A stretch of 11,995 bases of DNA from Candidatus Woesearchaeota archaeon (GTDB taxonomy: Archaea; Nanobdellota; Nanobdellia; Woesearchaeales; 21-14-0-10-32-9): contig PWWA01000058.1 of the NCBI GenBank assembly GCA_003562145.1, forward strand, positions 1-11,995, written 5' to 3'. Below are positions 290-8,315 of this stretch, piece after piece. The number at the start of each line of letters is the position of its first letter. Positions within the stretch are counted from its first letter, which is position 1. Position numbers and translations under genes: made by a program. Under the pieces are notes generated by a model. It was not told where the DNA came from, made no database searches, and saw only the letters and a list, made by a program, of their open reading frames with translations.

Positions 290-1510
290 TTAAACCTTCC
301 TCAACGCATCCACAGGGTTCATCCTCGCAGCCGAAAGAGCAGGGGTAATCCCAAATAAGGAGCCGAGCAAGAACGAAAATAGCAAAGCCCCAAACACTAA
401 TGGCAACGTGATAACTGCCTGCAACAGTGCAACACCTAAGAAGGTGACTGCGATGAATTCAACGAGCCACGCAAACCCCAAGCCTATTGCTACACCTATA
501 ACACCACCAGCCAAGCCAAGCAATCCAGACTCCAACAAGAATAAGCTAAGAACATCCCTATTCCTAGCACCAATCGCTTTCATAACGCCTATATCCCTAG
601 TACGCTCAAGCACACTCATATACATCGTATTAGCAATACCCACACCACCTACTACGAGACTTATAGCAGCGATGCCTACTACAACAACAGTAATAACATT
701 TAGCACTGTCCTAAAAGTGTCAAGAAGCTGCTGTGGAGTGGTTACCGAAAAAGTTTCCTGGCCAACGCGGTCACCCCTATGCCTCCTCAATTCATGGCGA
801 ATCCGCTCTGCAACGTCATCTATCTCATCAACATTCTGGACTTTAGCAGTAATCAAGGCGTAAGTATCCTCGTTGCCCGTTACTTCCCTGAGAACTTCTT
901 CATTTACTACCATGCTTCCATCGGTCTGGAAAGAGCCACTCCTCTTCATAACGCCAATAACAGTGAATTCCTGGCCACCGATAATTATTCGGTCACGGAC
1001 ATCAAGTTTTTTCCCGAGAACTGGGCGATCAAAATAGGTGTATCCAATTATTACGCTGTAGCGGTCATTGCTCCTCAGCATCCGCCCATACTCAATTTCG
1101 TAGTTATTATTATCTATGATGAATTGTCGCTCAACTGGGTCACGGGGAAGGCTGCCCACGAATTCCAAGGATAATTCATCATCAACCTCAACCATGACAG
1201 GCTCAATGAGAAACCCTGAAGCAATATCAACTCCGCGTGTGCGACGCACAACATTAAGATCAGACTCGTCCAAGGGAATGGCAACTGAAGACCCTGGGGG
1301 ACCGAAGCCAAGGCTTCTAGACTGCACAGTAATTCTTTCAACGCCTAGAACCTGGAATTGCTGGGCTACAGCTTGTTCAAGTCCCTGGCTTAGACTTATC
1401 AGGCTTACAACTGCAGCTATGCCGATTATTATGCCTACCATTGTAAGCCAGCTTCTAAGGCCCCGGCGCTTCAAGCTCTGAATTGATATTTTGAAGTATT
1501 CTCCCAGCAT
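290..1510 (-). CDS. ABC transporter permease, MacB/FtsX family
   Basis: A complete 406-residue permease of the MacB/LolC/FtsX superfamily. Layout: cytosolic amphipathic N-terminus, TM1 at about 21-41, a large extracytoplasmic MacB-PCD domain (about 45-262), TM2 about 270-296, a cytosolic coupling segment with ERTRDIGVMKAIGAR (about 302-316), TM3 about 321-352, TM4 about 367-390, and the family-typical ending PALSAARMNPVDALRK. Length and order match four-helix MacB-type permeases without a fused ATPase. The ATG at 1510 is preceded by AGGTG at a suitable distance. The gene lies downstream of the ATPase and the COG1361 protein and directly before a paralogous permease, so it is the membrane half of the same ABC system. 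A U-rich tract in front of it may lower its expression relative to the ATPase. The substrate is unknown. Confidence 0.95.
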   Translation of the reverse strand: MLGEYFKISIQSLKRRGLRSWLTMVGIIIGIAAVVSLISLSQGLEQAVAQQFQVLGVERITVQSRSLGFGPPGSSVAIPLDESDLNVVRRTRGVDIASGFLIEPVMVEVDDELSLEFVGSLPRDPVERQFIIDNNNYEIEYGRMLRSNDRYSVIIGYTYFDRPVLGKKLDVRDRIIIGGQEFTVIGVMKRSGSFQTDGSMVVNEEVLREVTGNEDTYALITAKVQNVDEIDDVAERIRHELRRHRGDRVGQETFSVTTPQQLLDTFRTVLNVITVVVVGIAAISLVVGGVGIANTMYMSVLERTRDIGVMKAIGARNRDVLSLFLLESGLLGLAGGVIGVAIGLGFAWLVEFIAVTFLGVALLQAVITLPLVFGALLFSFLLGSLFGITPALSAARMNPVDALRKV

Positions 1511-1546: not shown

Positions 1547-2785
1547 TTATTCCATTTCTTCGCGTTTCTTCTTTTTCTTCCTATAATACCATATTACTGC
1601 AGCTAAGAGCACTAATACTACTACGATCACTACGCCTACGCCTGCTCCATTGTTTTCGCATACATCACATACTTCATGCTGTATGTTAAACATCTCAATC
1701 CTTTGGTTGTTCAAGGCATCCCTGTATTCCAATGTTATCGGGAACAAGACGGTGTCAGGGTTTAGGGCTCTCACTCTGTACCTTACGGTTTGGTAGTCGT
1801 CACTAAAAATATTGCCTATGTAAACAGATCTTGAAGGGGATATTAATTCGTAGTCATTACTTTCCTTAAGCGTTATGGTTAATAGCTTAACATCTGCAAG
1901 GCCTTTGTTTACAATGCTGAAAACTATTTCCCCTGTCATCCTGTTCACATGAAGGTCGGTGTTATCTACCAACACTGTTAAGTCAGGCTCGTCGTTGATC
2001 TTCACGCCGATTATTGTAGTTTGCTCGAAGAACCTGCCTGCATCATTTGTGTAAGATATGTGCAAAGGGACTTTGTGTATTCCGGCGTCTGCATCCGGAT
2101 ATGCGTTAAGGTTGAACCTGAACTCCGATGTTTGGCCTGGTGCAATTCTATTCACTGATTTTTGGTTTGTTGAACCTGCAGGAATTATTGGAATATCCGC
2201 TAGTATAGTATTTCCCGCTACTATTGGCTCCAAACCCAGGGCGACTGTTACATCTCTGAGGCTTTCACCTGATGCAAGGTTTTTTAGTGATAAAACCAGC
2301 TCTGATGTACCACCTGGCACGAGTTGTTCTGGCTCCAAGACTATATTGCTTACATGAAGAACAGCCCTAGACGTTTGTACTAGCACAGGCACTCTTGCCG
2401 TCGCTTCCACGCCAGGGGCGTCCGCTAATGTGTAAGTTAGTTGTATATTGCTTGTTCCCTCGGGTGCGTCACTGGCAACCATTACCCTGTATCTTAACAA
2501 GTAGTCTTTCTGGGTGCCAAGCACAGATATTGTTTTTACCCTGTCTTGCTCGGATACTAATCTGAATGGGAATGAGTCCACGAATCTAATTTCTATATCT
2601 CTCGCATCCCGATCCCCAATGTTTTGGACGGTGACCCATACATCTACAGGCCTTCCTGGCTCTGCAGGCATAGGTTCCTGTGTTGACAATGAATATCTTA
2701 GCACAGGATTGTTTTGTGCTGATACACTTGCCGCTGCCAATAATACTACTAGCATCATGCTTATTGCAACTATTATTTTTTTCAT
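1547..2785 (-). CDS. COG1361-type surface protein with signal peptide and C-terminal membrane anchor
   Basis: About 412 residues. The N-terminus (MKKIIVAISMMLVVLLAAA, then SVSAQ) is a clear Sec signal peptide. The mature part looks like three consecutive Ig-fold CARDB/NEW3-like units (roughly 30-138, 142-265, 268-372), with phrases such as 'VTVQNIGDRDARD' and 'FSIVNKGLADVK' typical of this fold. A single membrane helix (about 381-400) follows, then a basic tail of lysines, so the bulk faces outside. Two cysteines (CDVC) sit just outside the membrane. COG1361 proteins are often encoded with MacB-type ABC genes in archaea and probably act as the extracytoplasmic partner. An ATG also exists at 2791, but the AAGGAGG at 2794-2800 is only 2-3 nt from it and about 8 nt from the ATG at 2785, so I prefer 2785. 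Confidence 0.88.
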   Translation of the reverse strand: MKKIIVAISMMLVVLLAAASVSAQNNPVLRYSLSTQEPMPAEPGRPVDVWVTVQNIGDRDARDIEIRFVDSFPFRLVSEQDRVKTISVLGTQKDYLLRYRVMVASDAPEGTSNIQLTYTLADAPGVEATARVPVLVQTSRAVLHVSNIVLEPEQLVPGGTSELVLSLKNLASGESLRDVTVALGLEPIVAGNTILADIPIIPAGSTNQKSVNRIAPGQTSEFRFNLNAYPDADAGIHKVPLHISYTNDAGRFFEQTTIIGVKINDEPDLTVLVDNTDLHVNRMTGEIVFSIVNKGLADVKLLTITLKESNDYELISPSRSVYIGNIFSDDYQTVRYRVRALNPDTVLFPITLEYRDALNNQRIEMFNIQHEVCDVCENNGAGVGVVIVVVLVLLAAVIWYYRKKKKKREEME

Positions 2786-2793
2786 TTTCATTT

Positions 2794-2800
2794 CCTCCTT
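2794..2800 (-). promoter_or_regulatory. Strong ribosome binding site of the COG1361 gene
   Basis: AAGGAGG on the minus strand, overlapping the first base of the stop codon of the upstream ATPase gene. It is the strongest Shine-Dalgarno match in the operon and decides between two in-frame ATGs (2791 too close, 2785 well spaced). Confidence 0.7.
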
Positions 2801-3564
2801 TAGTTTTCTGTTAAGTATTTTGATGTGTCTTCATCCAGGGATTTTACTATCATTCCATCTTTTATGTATATTATCCTGTTGGCTTGTTTTGCTACGCGTT
2901 CATCATGCGATACAAGGACTATTGTTGTTCCTTTTTCTTTGTGTAGCTTTTTTAGGAAATCCAGTACGGTGCTTCCTGATTTGCTGTCAAGGTTCCCGGT
3001 TGGCTCATCGGCTAGTATTACTTCTGGGTCTCCTGCGAGCGCCCTAGCTATTGCAACTCTTTGTTGCTGGCCTCCGCTTAGCTGCGTGGGCTTATTGTTA
3101 TACTTATCTGACAGCCCCACCAAGGATAAGTAGTTTTCTGCAAGCTTCTCGCGCTTATAACCTGTGTATCCTTGGAATGTTAATGGGAGCATAACGTTTT
3201 CCTTTGCTGTTAAGGAATTTAAGAGGTTAAATTGCTGGAATATGAAGCCTATTGTTCTTCCTCTAATCTGGGCTAAGCCTGATTCTGTCATTTTCGCTAT
3301 GTTCTTTCCGTTGAGGTGTACTATGCCTTTGCTTGGAACGTCTAAGCACCCTATCATGTTCATGAGTGTGCTTTTTCCGGATCCGCTCGGGCCCATTACT
3401 GCGAGGAATTCGCCTCTCTTTACTTTTAGGGTTGCACCTCTTAATGCGTGGAATTTTACTTCGCCCATCCTGTATGTTTTCCATACTCCGTCAAGTTCTA
3501 TTACGTGGCCATTATTAGCTTGCTTTGGAGGCATTTTTTTCTTTGCAATCTTTGCTTTTTGCAT
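2800..3564 (-). CDS. ABC transporter ATP-binding protein, LolD/MacB family
   Basis: A 254-residue cytosolic ATPase with all ABC motifs intact: Walker A GPSGSGKST (58-66), Q-loop glutamine near 110 in FIFQQFNLL, signature LSGGQQQRVAIARAL (162-176), Walker B VILADEPTGNLDS (182-194) and the switch histidine in LVSHD (about 220). The FIFQQFNLL and LADEPTGNLDS variants are characteristic of the LolD/MacB/FtsE group. A basic N-terminal extension of about 19 residues precedes the core; an internal ATG at about residue 11 could also serve. The start at 3564 is supported by AGGTG, which overlaps the stop of the PadR gene 8 nt upstream, indicating a coupled operon. It should power the two downstream permeases and work with the COG1361 surface protein. 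Confidence 0.96.
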   Translation of the reverse strand: MQKAKIAKKKMPPKQANNGHVIELDGVWKTYRMGEVKFHALRGATLKVKRGEFLAVMGPSGSGKSTLMNMIGCLDVPSKGIVHLNGKNIAKMTESGLAQIRGRTIGFIFQQFNLLNSLTAKENVMLPLTFQGYTGYKREKLAENYLSLVGLSDKYNNKPTQLSGGQQQRVAIARALAGDPEVILADEPTGNLDSKSGSTVLDFLKKLHKEKGTTIVLVSHDERVAKQANRIIYIKDGMIVKSLDEDTSKYLTEN

Positions 3565-3572
3565 TTTTACAC

Positions 3573-4070
3573 CTATATTTGCTTTAGCTTCTTTGTTGTT
3601 TCTACTAGTATCCGCTTTATTTTTGCTTTGTTATTCTTGATCTTGTTTTCTTTCATTAATCGAAACATCTCTTTTTTTAGGGCTGTGGTTTCTTCGTGGA
3701 GTTCCATGAATGATATGTTTCCCTTTTTGACTTCTTCTATTAGTTCCATATCCGGGCTAATATCTAGGCCGTAGATGGAGTTTAGCATTTTGTATGTGTT
3801 GATGAGGGATTCTATGAGTTGCTGTTTTTCGGCGTCTTTCTTTTTTAGTTCCTGCTTTCCTTTTGAAGTTAGCTTGTATTCCTTCTTTTTTTCTGCGGGG
3901 CATTGCTCTATTAGGCCTTCTTTTGCCATTTGCTCTAGTGCAGGGTATATTGAGCCGTAGCTTGGCTTCCATCCTAGTTCTCTCTCTATCTCTGCTGCGA
4001 GCTCCGCTCCGGACATCGGGTTTTTGTTTAGCATGCATATTATAATTGTTTTCAGTTGTCCTCTCATCAT
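3573..4070 (-). CDS. PadR-family transcriptional regulator
   Basis: A 165-residue DNA-binding protein. The N-terminal 75 residues form a PadR winged helix (ICMLNKNPMSGAELAAEIER, then SYGSIYPALEQMAKEGLIE, then the wing KKEYKLTSKGKQEL). The remainder is charged and predicted helical (about 75-165), fitting the coiled-coil dimerisation arm of the longer PadR proteins. It is the first gene of the ABC operon, the usual arrangement for PadR repressors controlling transporters, which sense a small molecule in the dimer groove. The promoter in front carries three copies of a palindrome, two over the predicted transcription start, which predicts autorepression. ATG codons at 4070 and 4067 are both possible; a GGGTGA lies 10-13 nt upstream. 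The ligand is unknown. Confidence 0.93.
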   Translation of the reverse strand: MMRGQLKTIIICMLNKNPMSGAELAAEIERELGWKPSYGSIYPALEQMAKEGLIEQCPAEKKKEYKLTSKGKQELKKKDAEKQQLIESLINTYKMLNSIYGLDISPDMELIEEVKKGNISFMELHEETTALKKEMFRLMKENKIKNNKAKIKRILVETTKKLKQI

Positions 4071-4093
4071 TTTTTGTTTTCACCCATTGTTTT

Positions 4094-4107
4094 TATCGAA
4101 AGCGATA
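4094..4107. promoter_or_regulatory. Operator 1: palindrome TATCG-N4-CGATA
   Basis: TATCGAAAGCGATA. Its outer five bases on each side are perfect inverted repeats. It overlaps operator 2 by two bases and lies in the predicted 5' leader of the PadR mRNA. Assigned to PadR by position only. Confidence 0.7.
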
Positions 4108-4119
4108 TCGAAAGCGATA
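4106..4119. promoter_or_regulatory. Operator 2: palindrome TATCG-N4-CGATA over the PadR start site
   Basis: An exact copy of operator 1, shifted by 12 bp. It sits about 26 bp downstream of the minus-strand TATA box centre, so a protein bound here would cover the predicted transcription start of the PadR-ABC operon. With three more flanking bases on the left and two on the right it matches operator 3 in 18 of 19 positions. Confidence 0.72.
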
Positions 4120-4137
4120 AATGGTAATCTGTGCTGG

Positions 4138-4153
4138 TTTATATACCTTTCGG
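4138..4153 (-). promoter_or_regulatory. BRE/TATA promoter of the PadR-ABC operon
   Basis: On the minus strand CCGAAAGG (BRE-like) is followed by TATATAAA (4138-4145). The predicted start of transcription is near 4115, giving a leader of about 45 nt that contains GGGTGA before the ATG at 4070. The TATA box lies between operators 2 and 3. Confidence 0.7.
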
Positions 4154-4159
4154 TTCCGA

Positions 4160-4173
4160 TATCGAAAACGATA
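4160..4173. promoter_or_regulatory. Operator 3: palindrome TATCG-N4-CGATA upstream of both promoters
   Basis: TATCGAAAACGATA, one base different from operators 1 and 2. It lies upstream of the PadR TATA box and about 26 bp upstream of the TATA box of the divergent YjbQ operon. It could therefore support looping with operators 1-2 or link control of the two operons. Confidence 0.66.
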
Positions 4174-4191
4174 AAACTCCTGAGTGATAAA

Positions 4192-4206
4192 CGAAAAGCA
4201 TAAAAA
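4192..4206 (+). promoter_or_regulatory. BRE/TATA promoter of the YjbQ operon (leaderless)
   Basis: CGAAAAG (BRE-like) followed by CATAAAAA. The box centre is about 25-26 bp before the GTG at 4228, so transcription should begin at or next to the start codon. This agrees with the absence of a ribosome site there. Confidence 0.6.
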
Positions 4207-4227
4207 CACAGCAATAAAAAGCACTTT

Positions 4228-4635
4228 GTGATAAAGGAAATAACCATCCAGACCAAGAAAAGAAACGAATTAGTAGACATAACCTCGCACGTGAAAGAAT
4301 TTGCTAAGAGCATTGAAGAAGGCACTATAACTATTTACTGCCCGCACACCACAGCAGGAATAACCATTAACGAGAACGCAGACCCAACCGTAAAAGAAGA
4401 CATCCTGAGAAAGCTTTCAGAACTCATACCTAAGAACGACAACTACAAGCACATGGAAGGAAACAGCGACAGCCACATAAAAGCCACCCTTACAGGAAGC
4501 AGCGCGACAATAATAGTGCAAGACGGAAAGCCCTTACTGGGAACATGGCAAGGAATCCTGTTCTGCGAATACGACGGGCCTAGAACCAGAAAGATAATCA
4601 TACAAACAAGGAAATGGAAGAGCCACACCTCATAA
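4228..4635 (+). CDS. yjbQ: YjbQ family protein (UPF0047, secondary thiamine-phosphate synthase-like)
   Basis: A 135-residue protein of full family length, carrying the conserved signatures CPHTTAGITINENADP (38-53), HMEGNSDSHIKA (75-86), GTWQGI (105-110) and EYDGPR (114-119). The histidines and acidic residues of these motifs line the family's active-site-like pocket. Bacterial members show weak thiamine-phosphate synthase activity in vitro and complement some thiamine mutants, but the physiological role is unsettled; no other thiamine gene is visible here. The start is a GTG without a ribosome site but with a TATA box about 26 bp upstream, which fits a leaderless mRNA. The gene overlaps the next by 22 nt, so the two should be co-expressed. 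Confidence 0.93.
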   Translation: MIKEITIQTKKRNELVDITSHVKEFAKSIEEGTITIYCPHTTAGITINENADPTVKEDILRKLSELIPKNDNYKHMEGNSDSHIKATLTGSSATIIVQDGKPLLGTWQGILFCEYDGPRTRKIIIQTRKWKSHTS

Positions 4636-7402: not shown

Positions 7403-8299
7403 TCAATCTTGGCGCTTTGATCTTTTCTGAAAAAATTTTACGATGTGCCCTAGCGGCTCTTCATCTGTGGGGAGCAATAAAAAGTCGCCTCTGCAACGAA
7501 CGAATATATTCTGCATTTTCATTATTTCAGCGTGCATTTTCTCCTTGTATAGCTTTGAGTAGTGCTTGACGTCAATATAAATATTCTCATCTGAGAAAGG
7601 GTTTTTTAGCATGTATTGCCCGCCGGTTCTTGGTAGCTCAATATCCCTGCGGTCACGCACCATTAAGGCTATTAATTCGAAGTCTTCGGACATCATTTCA
7701 ACGTAGCGCTCCCAGCCATCGCCTAATCCTATGAAGTCAGATACTATTATTACCACCGCTTTTTTTTGCAGCAAAGACCTTGTTAGCATAAGTGCTTTCT
7801 TGAAGTTAAACCCGCCACCATAATTCTTTGGGTCTGAAATGTTTGACCTTACACGGTTTAGTATCTCTGCGCCTATATCCGGGTATATTTTGTTTACGAA
7901 GTCATCGTTGAACATGGCCATGCCTACTGCGTCGCCTCCCTTGTTTATTGCATCTGCCAGTACATATATCAGCTCGGCTGCGAACTCGCACTTTAGCTTG
8001 TCCGTGGATGTAAAGAGCATTGAATCACTTACATCGAAGAGGAAGAAAACCGTGAAGTTCTTGAATTCCTCGAATTCCCTGATTAGCGTGTCGTTAGCGC
8101 GCAGGCTGGCTTTCCAATCTATTAGGCTTGCGTCATCCCCGTATTGGTAGACTCGAAACCCCGCGAATTCTATGCCGCGCCCCTTGAAGACAGTGGACCA
8201 TTCACCTTCCATAGTTTTTGAAAGGACGTCCCTCCTAGAGTAAACGTCTAGCTTTCTTAGCTCAGGGGCAAGATCAAGTTTTATTTCTTTTATCGCCAT
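7403..8299 (-). CDS. DUF58 domain-containing protein
   Basis: A 298-residue soluble protein. The DUF58 hallmark runs from GRGIEFAGFRVYQYGDD (about 40-56) to the DWKASLR and TLIREFEE blocks (about 61-78). A VWA-like fold then shows a MIDAS-type FDVSDSM (D89, S91, S93) and VSDF (D188). No signal peptide or membrane helix is seen, so it is probably cytosolic, unlike the many bacterial DUF58 proteins with two N-terminal helices. It lies 16 nt after the MoxR gene and 13 nt before the VWA gene, the standard MoxR-DUF58-VWA order. It likely links the ATPase to the membrane VWA protein; that role is inference from conserved context. Confidence 0.93.
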   Translation of the reverse strand: MAIKEIKLDLAPELRKLDVYSRRDVLSKTMEGEWSTVFKGRGIEFAGFRVYQYGDDASLIDWKASLRANDTLIREFEEFKNFTVFFLFDVSDSMLFTSTDKLKCEFAAELIYVLADAINKGGDAVGMAMFNDDFVNKIYPDIGAEILNRVRSNISDPKNYGGGFNFKKALMLTRSLLQKKAVVIIVSDFIGLGDGWERYVEMMSEDFELIALMVRDRRDIELPRTGGQYMLKNPFSDENIYIDVKHYSKLYKEKMHAEIMKMQNIFVRCRGDFLLLPTDEEPLGHIVKFFQKRSKRQD

Positions 8300-8315
8300 T
8301 GATAAAACCTTGGAT

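Follow-up and report, generated by a model that had tools for sequence, protein, structure and literature searches.

The intergenic DNA upstream of padR, in the 11,995-nucleotide stretch of a Woesearchaeota genome analysed here (the window), carries an array of the palindrome TATCG-N4-CGATA, to which the repressor encoded by padR itself very probably binds. We are fairly confident that a long archaeal PadR controls its own transcription from this region and represses the MacB-like exporter operon that padR heads; the half-site would go by the recognition helix and the spacing by the dimer type. The proposed autoregulation is argued from the position of the sites and from their conservation. 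To our knowledge, few operators have been identified for the regulators of uncultivated DPANN archaea. The operon and its divergent neighbour are arranged as follows.

290..1510, minus strand: MacB-type permease (MacB_PCD and FtsX), by profile search
1547..2791, minus strand: CARDB-like domain protein, probably exported or membrane-bound (PF07705, 30.4 bits against a cut-off of 22.7)
2800..3564, minus strand: ABC transporter ATPase, MacB/LolD-like (PF00005)
3573..4070, minus strand: padR, 165 aa, a long PadR with the recognition helix KPSYGSIYPAL (profile, alignment and model)
4228..4635, plus strand: yjbQ (UPF0047), divergent neighbour, probably with a leaderless GTG start (profile matches)

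The protein encoded at 3573-4070 is a PadR by profile and by fold. It matches PF03551 at 55.1 bits (cut-off 27) over residues 10-77, and its AlphaFold2 model (pLDDT 90.2, pTM 0.67) is a winged helix with a C-terminal helical part, composed of helices at 3-16, 21-32 and 38-50, strands at 54-59 and 62-67, a helix at 69-100 and three helices thereafter. The top of the Foldseek list consists of PadR-type regulators, including 5x11 (a PadR-operator complex), RosR and LmrR, and the query-based TM-scores are 0.37-0.51. The protein also has a linked and co-oriented ABC gene, which is a frequent though not obligatory trait of PadRs; for this ATPase, each of the 25 NCBIfam matches listed falls below its cut-off. 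A same-strand ABC ATPase follows padR in 51 of the 53 Woesearchaeota loci described below, and in the other two (L087 and L130) the contig ends at that point. In genome G001 the match to padR (L007/L066) is split over two overlapping frames and includes one stop, which points to either a broken gene or an assembly error.

A pattern scan of the window located exact copies of TATCG-N4-CGATA at 4094-4107, 4106-4119 and 4160-4173, and a further copy, differing at one base, at 4148-4161. Since this fourth copy overlaps the one at 4160 by two bases, exactly as 4094 overlaps 4106, the array resolves into two double operators of 26 bp each, B at 4094-4119 and A at 4148-4173, which are spaced 54 bp apart and lie on either side of the padR TATA box. 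The sites and the promoter elements around them are listed here.

4094..4107, no strand: predicted PadR site B1, exact TATCG-N4-CGATA; genome G001 keeps the arms and has a changed spacer
4106..4119, no strand: predicted PadR site B2, exact; has TA in common with B1 and lies over the predicted padR transcription start
4138..4145, minus strand: padR TATA box (TATATAAA), read from the sequence by the general archaeal promoter rule
4146..4152, minus strand: BRE-like element CGAAAGG of padR, read from the sequence; overlaps site A1
4148..4161, no strand: predicted PadR site A1, one change (TTTCGGTTCCGATA); its outer arm is CGAAA on the minus strand
4160..4173, no strand: predicted PadR site A2, exact TATCG-N4-CGATA; has TA in common with A1
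4192..4207, plus strand: BRE-like CGAAAAGC and TATA-like ATAAAAAC of yjbQ, read from the sequence; 18 bp past operator A

An earlier, sequence-only reading of this DNA had described a three-copy array whose last member carried one changed base. The array in fact has four copies, and the arms at 4160 are exact, only the N4 spacer being different (AAAA vs AAAG). The 12-bp period of the copies at 4094 and 4106, with their two shared bases (TA), was borne out by the scan, and the 19-bp agreement CGATATCGAAARCGATAAA that the same reading had seen at 4103 and 4157 holds at 18 of 19 positions (95%). On comparing the window genome (G000) with G001, all arms of operator B were found unchanged while its spacer bases differ, and operator A was identical at 26/26 bases. 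We also considered the inner palindrome CGATATCG as the physical unit. It was rejected, as the N4 unit is constant across arrays of 12-bp and 14-bp step and the middle of the inner palindrome is not; a lone N4 unit in L026 and units 28 bp apart in L021 and L154 disfavour it further. In genome G004, two contigs (L009, at G004:C5:5-42, and G004:C8:2-51) open with the same 12-bp tandem, TATCATATCCGA. Since one of these contig starts coincides with the operators of padR, either a longer array or an assembly break is likely there.

Archaeal transcription generally starts 22-26 nt beyond the TATA box. By this rule the padR start is predicted at 4116-4112, inside the site at 4106-4119, and the sequence-only reading was right in placing the operator over it. 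The changed outer arm of site A1 (4148-4152) reads CGAAA on the minus strand and is part of the BRE-like element of padR, and operator A as a whole sits between the padR and yjbQ promoters. The gap between the TATA box and operator B is 18 bp in the window; the usual gap in its relatives is 4-6 bp. Among the 51 Woesearchaeota loci with sites, 37 have a TATA-like octamer immediately before the array, 4-6 bp away from it in 27 cases; 6 have one immediately after it, and 3 are counted under both. For randomly placed 28-bp stretches the frequencies are 0.184 upstream and 0.225 downstream. The strict TATA pattern used for this count misses 11 of the 51 loci, including the window, whose promoter was read by eye. 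With the array just after the TATA box, as in many relatives, the initiation region would be covered. The placement in the window, where A abuts the TATA box and BRE and B lies over the predicted start, and that in the relatives would both be compatible with repression.

In order to follow the motif beyond the window, 194 genomes were searched at the protein level. PadR relatives were found in 81, and the upstreams of 30 such loci were read (L006 being without an upstream). To these we added the best 80 of 569 matches to the helix pattern PSxGS[IM]YP[LA]L in named genomes, and the set from other phyla is therefore biased towards the PSxGS helix. Two loci in which a start could not be located (L006 and L090) and another 16 with duplicate upstreams were dropped before counting. 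This left 92 distinct upstreams, 53 from Woesearchaeota, Nanoarchaeota-labelled or same-order genomes (the Woesearchaeota loci) and 39 from other phyla. Within 200 bp upstream, the exact N4 site occurs in 40/53 Woesearchaeota loci and a site with any other spacer from 0 to 12 in none or one, the shuffle mean being 0.06. With slightly longer upstreams the exact site was found in 41/53, and a site with at most one change in 51/53 (shuffle mean 0.6 for the latter), the two exceptions being L024 and L074. The sequence-only reading had proposed looking for the palindrome before padR orthologs, and it is present there. A scan of self-complementary 5-mer dyads at spacings of 0-16, to which the motif was not supplied, ranked TATCG-N4-CGATA first in Woesearchaeota (40/53). 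In the other phyla ATATC-N6-GATAT, which is the same site in another frame, came first (25/39) and TATCG-N4-CGATA second (14/39).

Outside the Woesearchaeota the exact N4 site is thus found in 14/39 upstreams, leaving 25/39 without it, and a site with at most one change in 23/39. The exact sites come from Archaeoglobaceae, Brockarchaeota, Bathyarchaeota, Thermoplasma, Thorarchaeota, Bipolaricaulota, Clostridiales, Limnochordia and Neomarinimicrobiota records. A further batch of long PadRs comprised 18 regions, 16 of them usable (L160 and L161 were dropped for want of a start). Here 9/16 had an exact site and 11/16 one with at most one change, or 8/15 and 10/15 after removal of L146, which lies on the same contig as L099. 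Five of the 16 had no N4 site at up to one change; among these, L156 and L162 carry exact N5 sites and L158 an exact N3 site. As these are natural sites at loci of long PadRs, the N4 rule is not absolute. Among the 58 exact sites, 35 different spacers occur. Conservation thus concerns the arms and, for the most part, the spacer length of four, and the spacer letters are free. Tandem steps, counted where one site had at most one change and its partner at most two, are 14 bp in 44/53 Woesearchaeota loci and 12 bp, the arrangement of the window, in 5/53; in the other phyla they are 12 bp in 10/39 and 14 bp in 8/39. Preservation of the motif before orthologs across the whole order and beyond, together with the linked ABC gene, supports the earlier proposal that this is a PadR operator array.

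We then compared the sites of paralogous PadRs. The paralog set consisted of 20 short PadR genes and 40 further places, of which L213 was dropped (same contig as L130), and by recognition helix it divides into 24 short PSxGT proteins, 26 LTxGT proteins and 9 others. Upstream of the short PSxGT paralogs (L172-L182, L192-L202, L211 and L212) TATCG-N6-CGATA is exact in 22/24 cases and the N4 form in 0/24; the N6 counts are 9/11 in the first batch, where the form was first noticed, and 13/13 in the second. The LTxGT genes (L163-L171, L203, L205-L208, L210, L215-L218, L221, L223-L226, L228 and L229; LTPGTIYP) have an exact TATCG site with N4 or N6 in 0/26. TATTG-N6-CAATA, recognised post hoc, is exact in 8/17 of their later batch and in 0/9 of the first, which is the window's own family. 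The remaining nine (L204, L209, L214, L219, L220, L222, L227, L230 and L231) have ISAS-type and similar helices, and ATATC-N7-GATAT, with an odd spacer and again found post hoc, is exact in 5/9 of them.

These counts show the half-site to be correlated with the recognition helix: PS occurs with TATCG, and LT with no exact TATCG and in some cases TATTG. In a 117-row tree, built from few columns and with rough support, the long proteins fall on one side of a branch, as do the LT proteins, and PSxGT requires two changes. Each helix class is one clade or nearly so, and the correlation between class and site therefore rests on few evolutionary events. The spacer in turn goes with the type of protein, N4 with long PadRs and N6 with short ones, and so probably with the dimer. 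Helix and spacing are separated by archaeal PadRs of 132-135 aa outside Woesearchaeota (L114, L117 and L131), which combine a PSxGS helix with exact N6 sites; among the other-phyla proteins of at least 149 aa with an exact N4 or N6 site, the spacer is N4 in 13/13. These same three short proteins make us doubt that the S/T change between PSxGS and PSxGT causes the difference between N4 and N6. Length alone does not fix the spacer, as L115, of 141 aa, has an N4 site. We hypothesise a two-part PadR code, for which we put the chances at about even. The half-site (TATCG or TATTG) would be set by the residues at the start of the helix (PS or LT) and the spacer by the dimer module (N4 for proteins that have the long C-terminal domain, N6 for short proteins), so that paralogs in one archaeal cell would be kept apart mainly by 2 bp of spacing. 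L114, L117 and L131 are as this code predicts.

Could the repeats be a chance product of base composition? The stretch is intergenic and AT-rich, and in the assembly of the window genome (655,780 bases, 73.1% complete) the motif with one mismatch allowed occurs at 10 places as against 23 for the reversed-pattern control. The three exact copies in that assembly, however, all lie in this array (reversed control, 1), and at up to two mismatches the window alone holds 10 matches where 3.54 are expected, a number reached by 0/200 shuffles. Of the exact copies in other genomes, those before padR are 3/3 in G001, 2/2 in G009 and only 2/5 in G010, and the exact motif does not outnumber its reversed control in many of the 194 genomes. 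Given the one-mismatch deficit, the signal is to be sought in the local cluster and its position before padR and not in a genome-wide excess. Such clustering, the shuffles, the spacer controls and the orthologs speak against chance, which conservation renders extremely improbable. A one-mismatch copy (TATCGCCATTGATA) at 8291-8304, at the start of the 7403-8299 reading frame, is probably fortuitous. A role of the repeats in the padR 5' leader RNA, as a hairpin or attenuator and not as DNA operators, is also very improbable. Operator B does lie mostly inside the predicted leader, but this leader (4065-4117) shows no better folding than its shuffled versions (z -0.60; 49/200 as good), operator A is upstream of the TATA box, and the arrays of many relatives begin right after the TATA box and would be largely untranscribed.

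Another transcription factor, for example a TrmB-like one, might read the sites and regulate PadR operons, with PadR binding elsewhere. TrmBL1 belongs to a protein family other than PadR. In Pyrococcus it reads TATCAC-N5-GTGATA, which has the same TATC/GATA ends, and it represses a PadR gene (PMC4706686, as far as the text was available to us); this site has other inner letters and a wider spacing (TATC-N9-GATA vs TATC-N6-GATA here). Moreover, the motif accompanies padR through very different genomes and phyla, the exact genome copies in G000, G001 and G009 are all at padR, and each class of PadR paralogs has its own variant of the motif, which is hard to explain unless PadR is the reader. We regard a foreign reader as improbable. 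The sequence-only reading had further suggested looping and shared control of yjbQ. No evidence was found for looping between the operators, and the 54 bp that separate them are short for a protein-bridged DNA loop. As to yjbQ, operator A could be an upstream element through which PadR activates or represses it, given that A lies between both promoters and keeps all its 26 bases in G001, where yjbQ also adjoins. That identity can also be accounted for by the overlap of operator A with the padR BRE, and A stops 18 bp before the BRE-like element of yjbQ. Furthermore, yjbQ is the divergent neighbour in just 3/92 distinct loci (the window, L066 in G001 and L065 in G009), where 85/92 have at least 600 bp on the neighbour side and 7 have less, and the G009 operators are located by the start of padR, at a distance from yjbQ. 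In the window's family a yjbQ relative occurs in 7/11 genomes, beside padR in 3 and only elsewhere in 4, the padR of G004 being at a contig end. Co-control of yjbQ is accordingly unlikely, and we judge yjbQ to be a bystander.

We therefore return to PadR as the reader of its own operator, for which the following mechanism may be envisaged. Each TATCG-N4-CGATA would take one PadR dimer, and dimers would sit in tandem at 12-bp steps in the window and at 14 bp in most relatives; neighbouring dimers at the 12-bp overlap look sterically tight. Occupied, double operator B would block RNA polymerase at the padR transcription start. Double operator A abuts the TATA box, and because its outer arm doubles as the BRE-like CGAAA, a bound dimer would be expected to exclude TFB. 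In the presence of the exporter substrate, PadR would release the DNA and the padR-ATPase-CARDB-permease operon would be transcribed. Dimer binding, cooperativity, repression and induction by substrate are all inferred by analogy with the PadR family. The work implies that one predicted operator spans an order and extends to other archaeal phyla and some bacteria, and that natural paralogs vary half-site and spacer separately. If the binding is borne out, sequence could reveal the target genes of many PadRs, and sensors based on PadR with a chosen half-site and spacing could be predicted.

TATCG-N4-CGATA was not found for a PadR in the parts of the open-access PMC literature available to us, and in those of PMC6624303, PMC11970672, PMC5484467 and PMC10886379 the matching letters are primers or spacer sequences. 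The textbook operator of PadR from Pediococcus and Lactobacillus and of Listeria LadR is given as ATGT-N8-ACAT in the accessible parts of PMC4517056 and PMC3506622. It is absent from 4080-4230 at 0-1 mismatches and exact in 0/53 Woesearchaeota upstreams, in agreement with the earlier suggestion that the present motif is distinct. Elsewhere in the window, ATGT-N8-ACAT with one mismatch occurs at 10 places outside 4080-4230, mostly in reading frames, against 4.35 expected (3/200 shuffles equal). The two operators are alike in dyad symmetry and in having an efflux or stress target beside the regulator (PMC4517056, PMC3506622), and by our comparison also in register. An A precedes 36/58 and a T follows 40/58 of our exact sites, and as ATATCG-N4-CGATAT contains ATAT-N8-ATAT, the half-sites are about 12 bp apart from centre to centre, as in the textbook site. 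They are unlike in that the half-site is ACAT there and CGATAT here, where the CG by the spacer belongs to the motif and tandems run at 12 or 14 bp.

The short PadR-s2 proteins LmrR, bcPadR1 and cdPadR1 have reported ATGT/ACAT spacers of 8-10 (PMC3506622 and PMC5050560, in the parts available). They resemble our short paralogs, whose N6 corresponds to a spacer of 10 in ATGT/ACAT numbering, and LmrR controls an ABC exporter. In contrast, cdPadR1 reads TACT(N11-12)AGTA, in which the spacer is loose, the site of LmrR is ATGT/ACAT, and the window protein is of the long type. For LmrR the accessible texts give ten bases in PMC5050560 and N8 in PMC4517056, so the published division into long and short is not clean. 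TrmBL1, discussed above, likewise has a palindromic archaeal site and a PadR gene among its targets, with the differences already described; the accessible part of PMC4706686 describes PadR function in Archaea as unknown. The window PadR also matches RTP of Bacillus subtilis (PF02334) weakly, at 20.5 bits, below the curated cut-off of 26.7. RTP binds as cooperative dimers on overlapping sites. The two would be related in fold, judging by this weak Pfam match, and differ in that RTP is a replication terminator with no regulatory operon. An archaeal relative, matched at the level of both sequence and fold, is the winged-helix protein RosR of Halobacterium, with a palindromic TCG/CGA-containing site near start codons (PMC4287449, in the part available). 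Its site, TCGnCGACGAGnTCGnCGAC, serves a global regulon, whereas the array described here has another spacing and belongs to a local operon.
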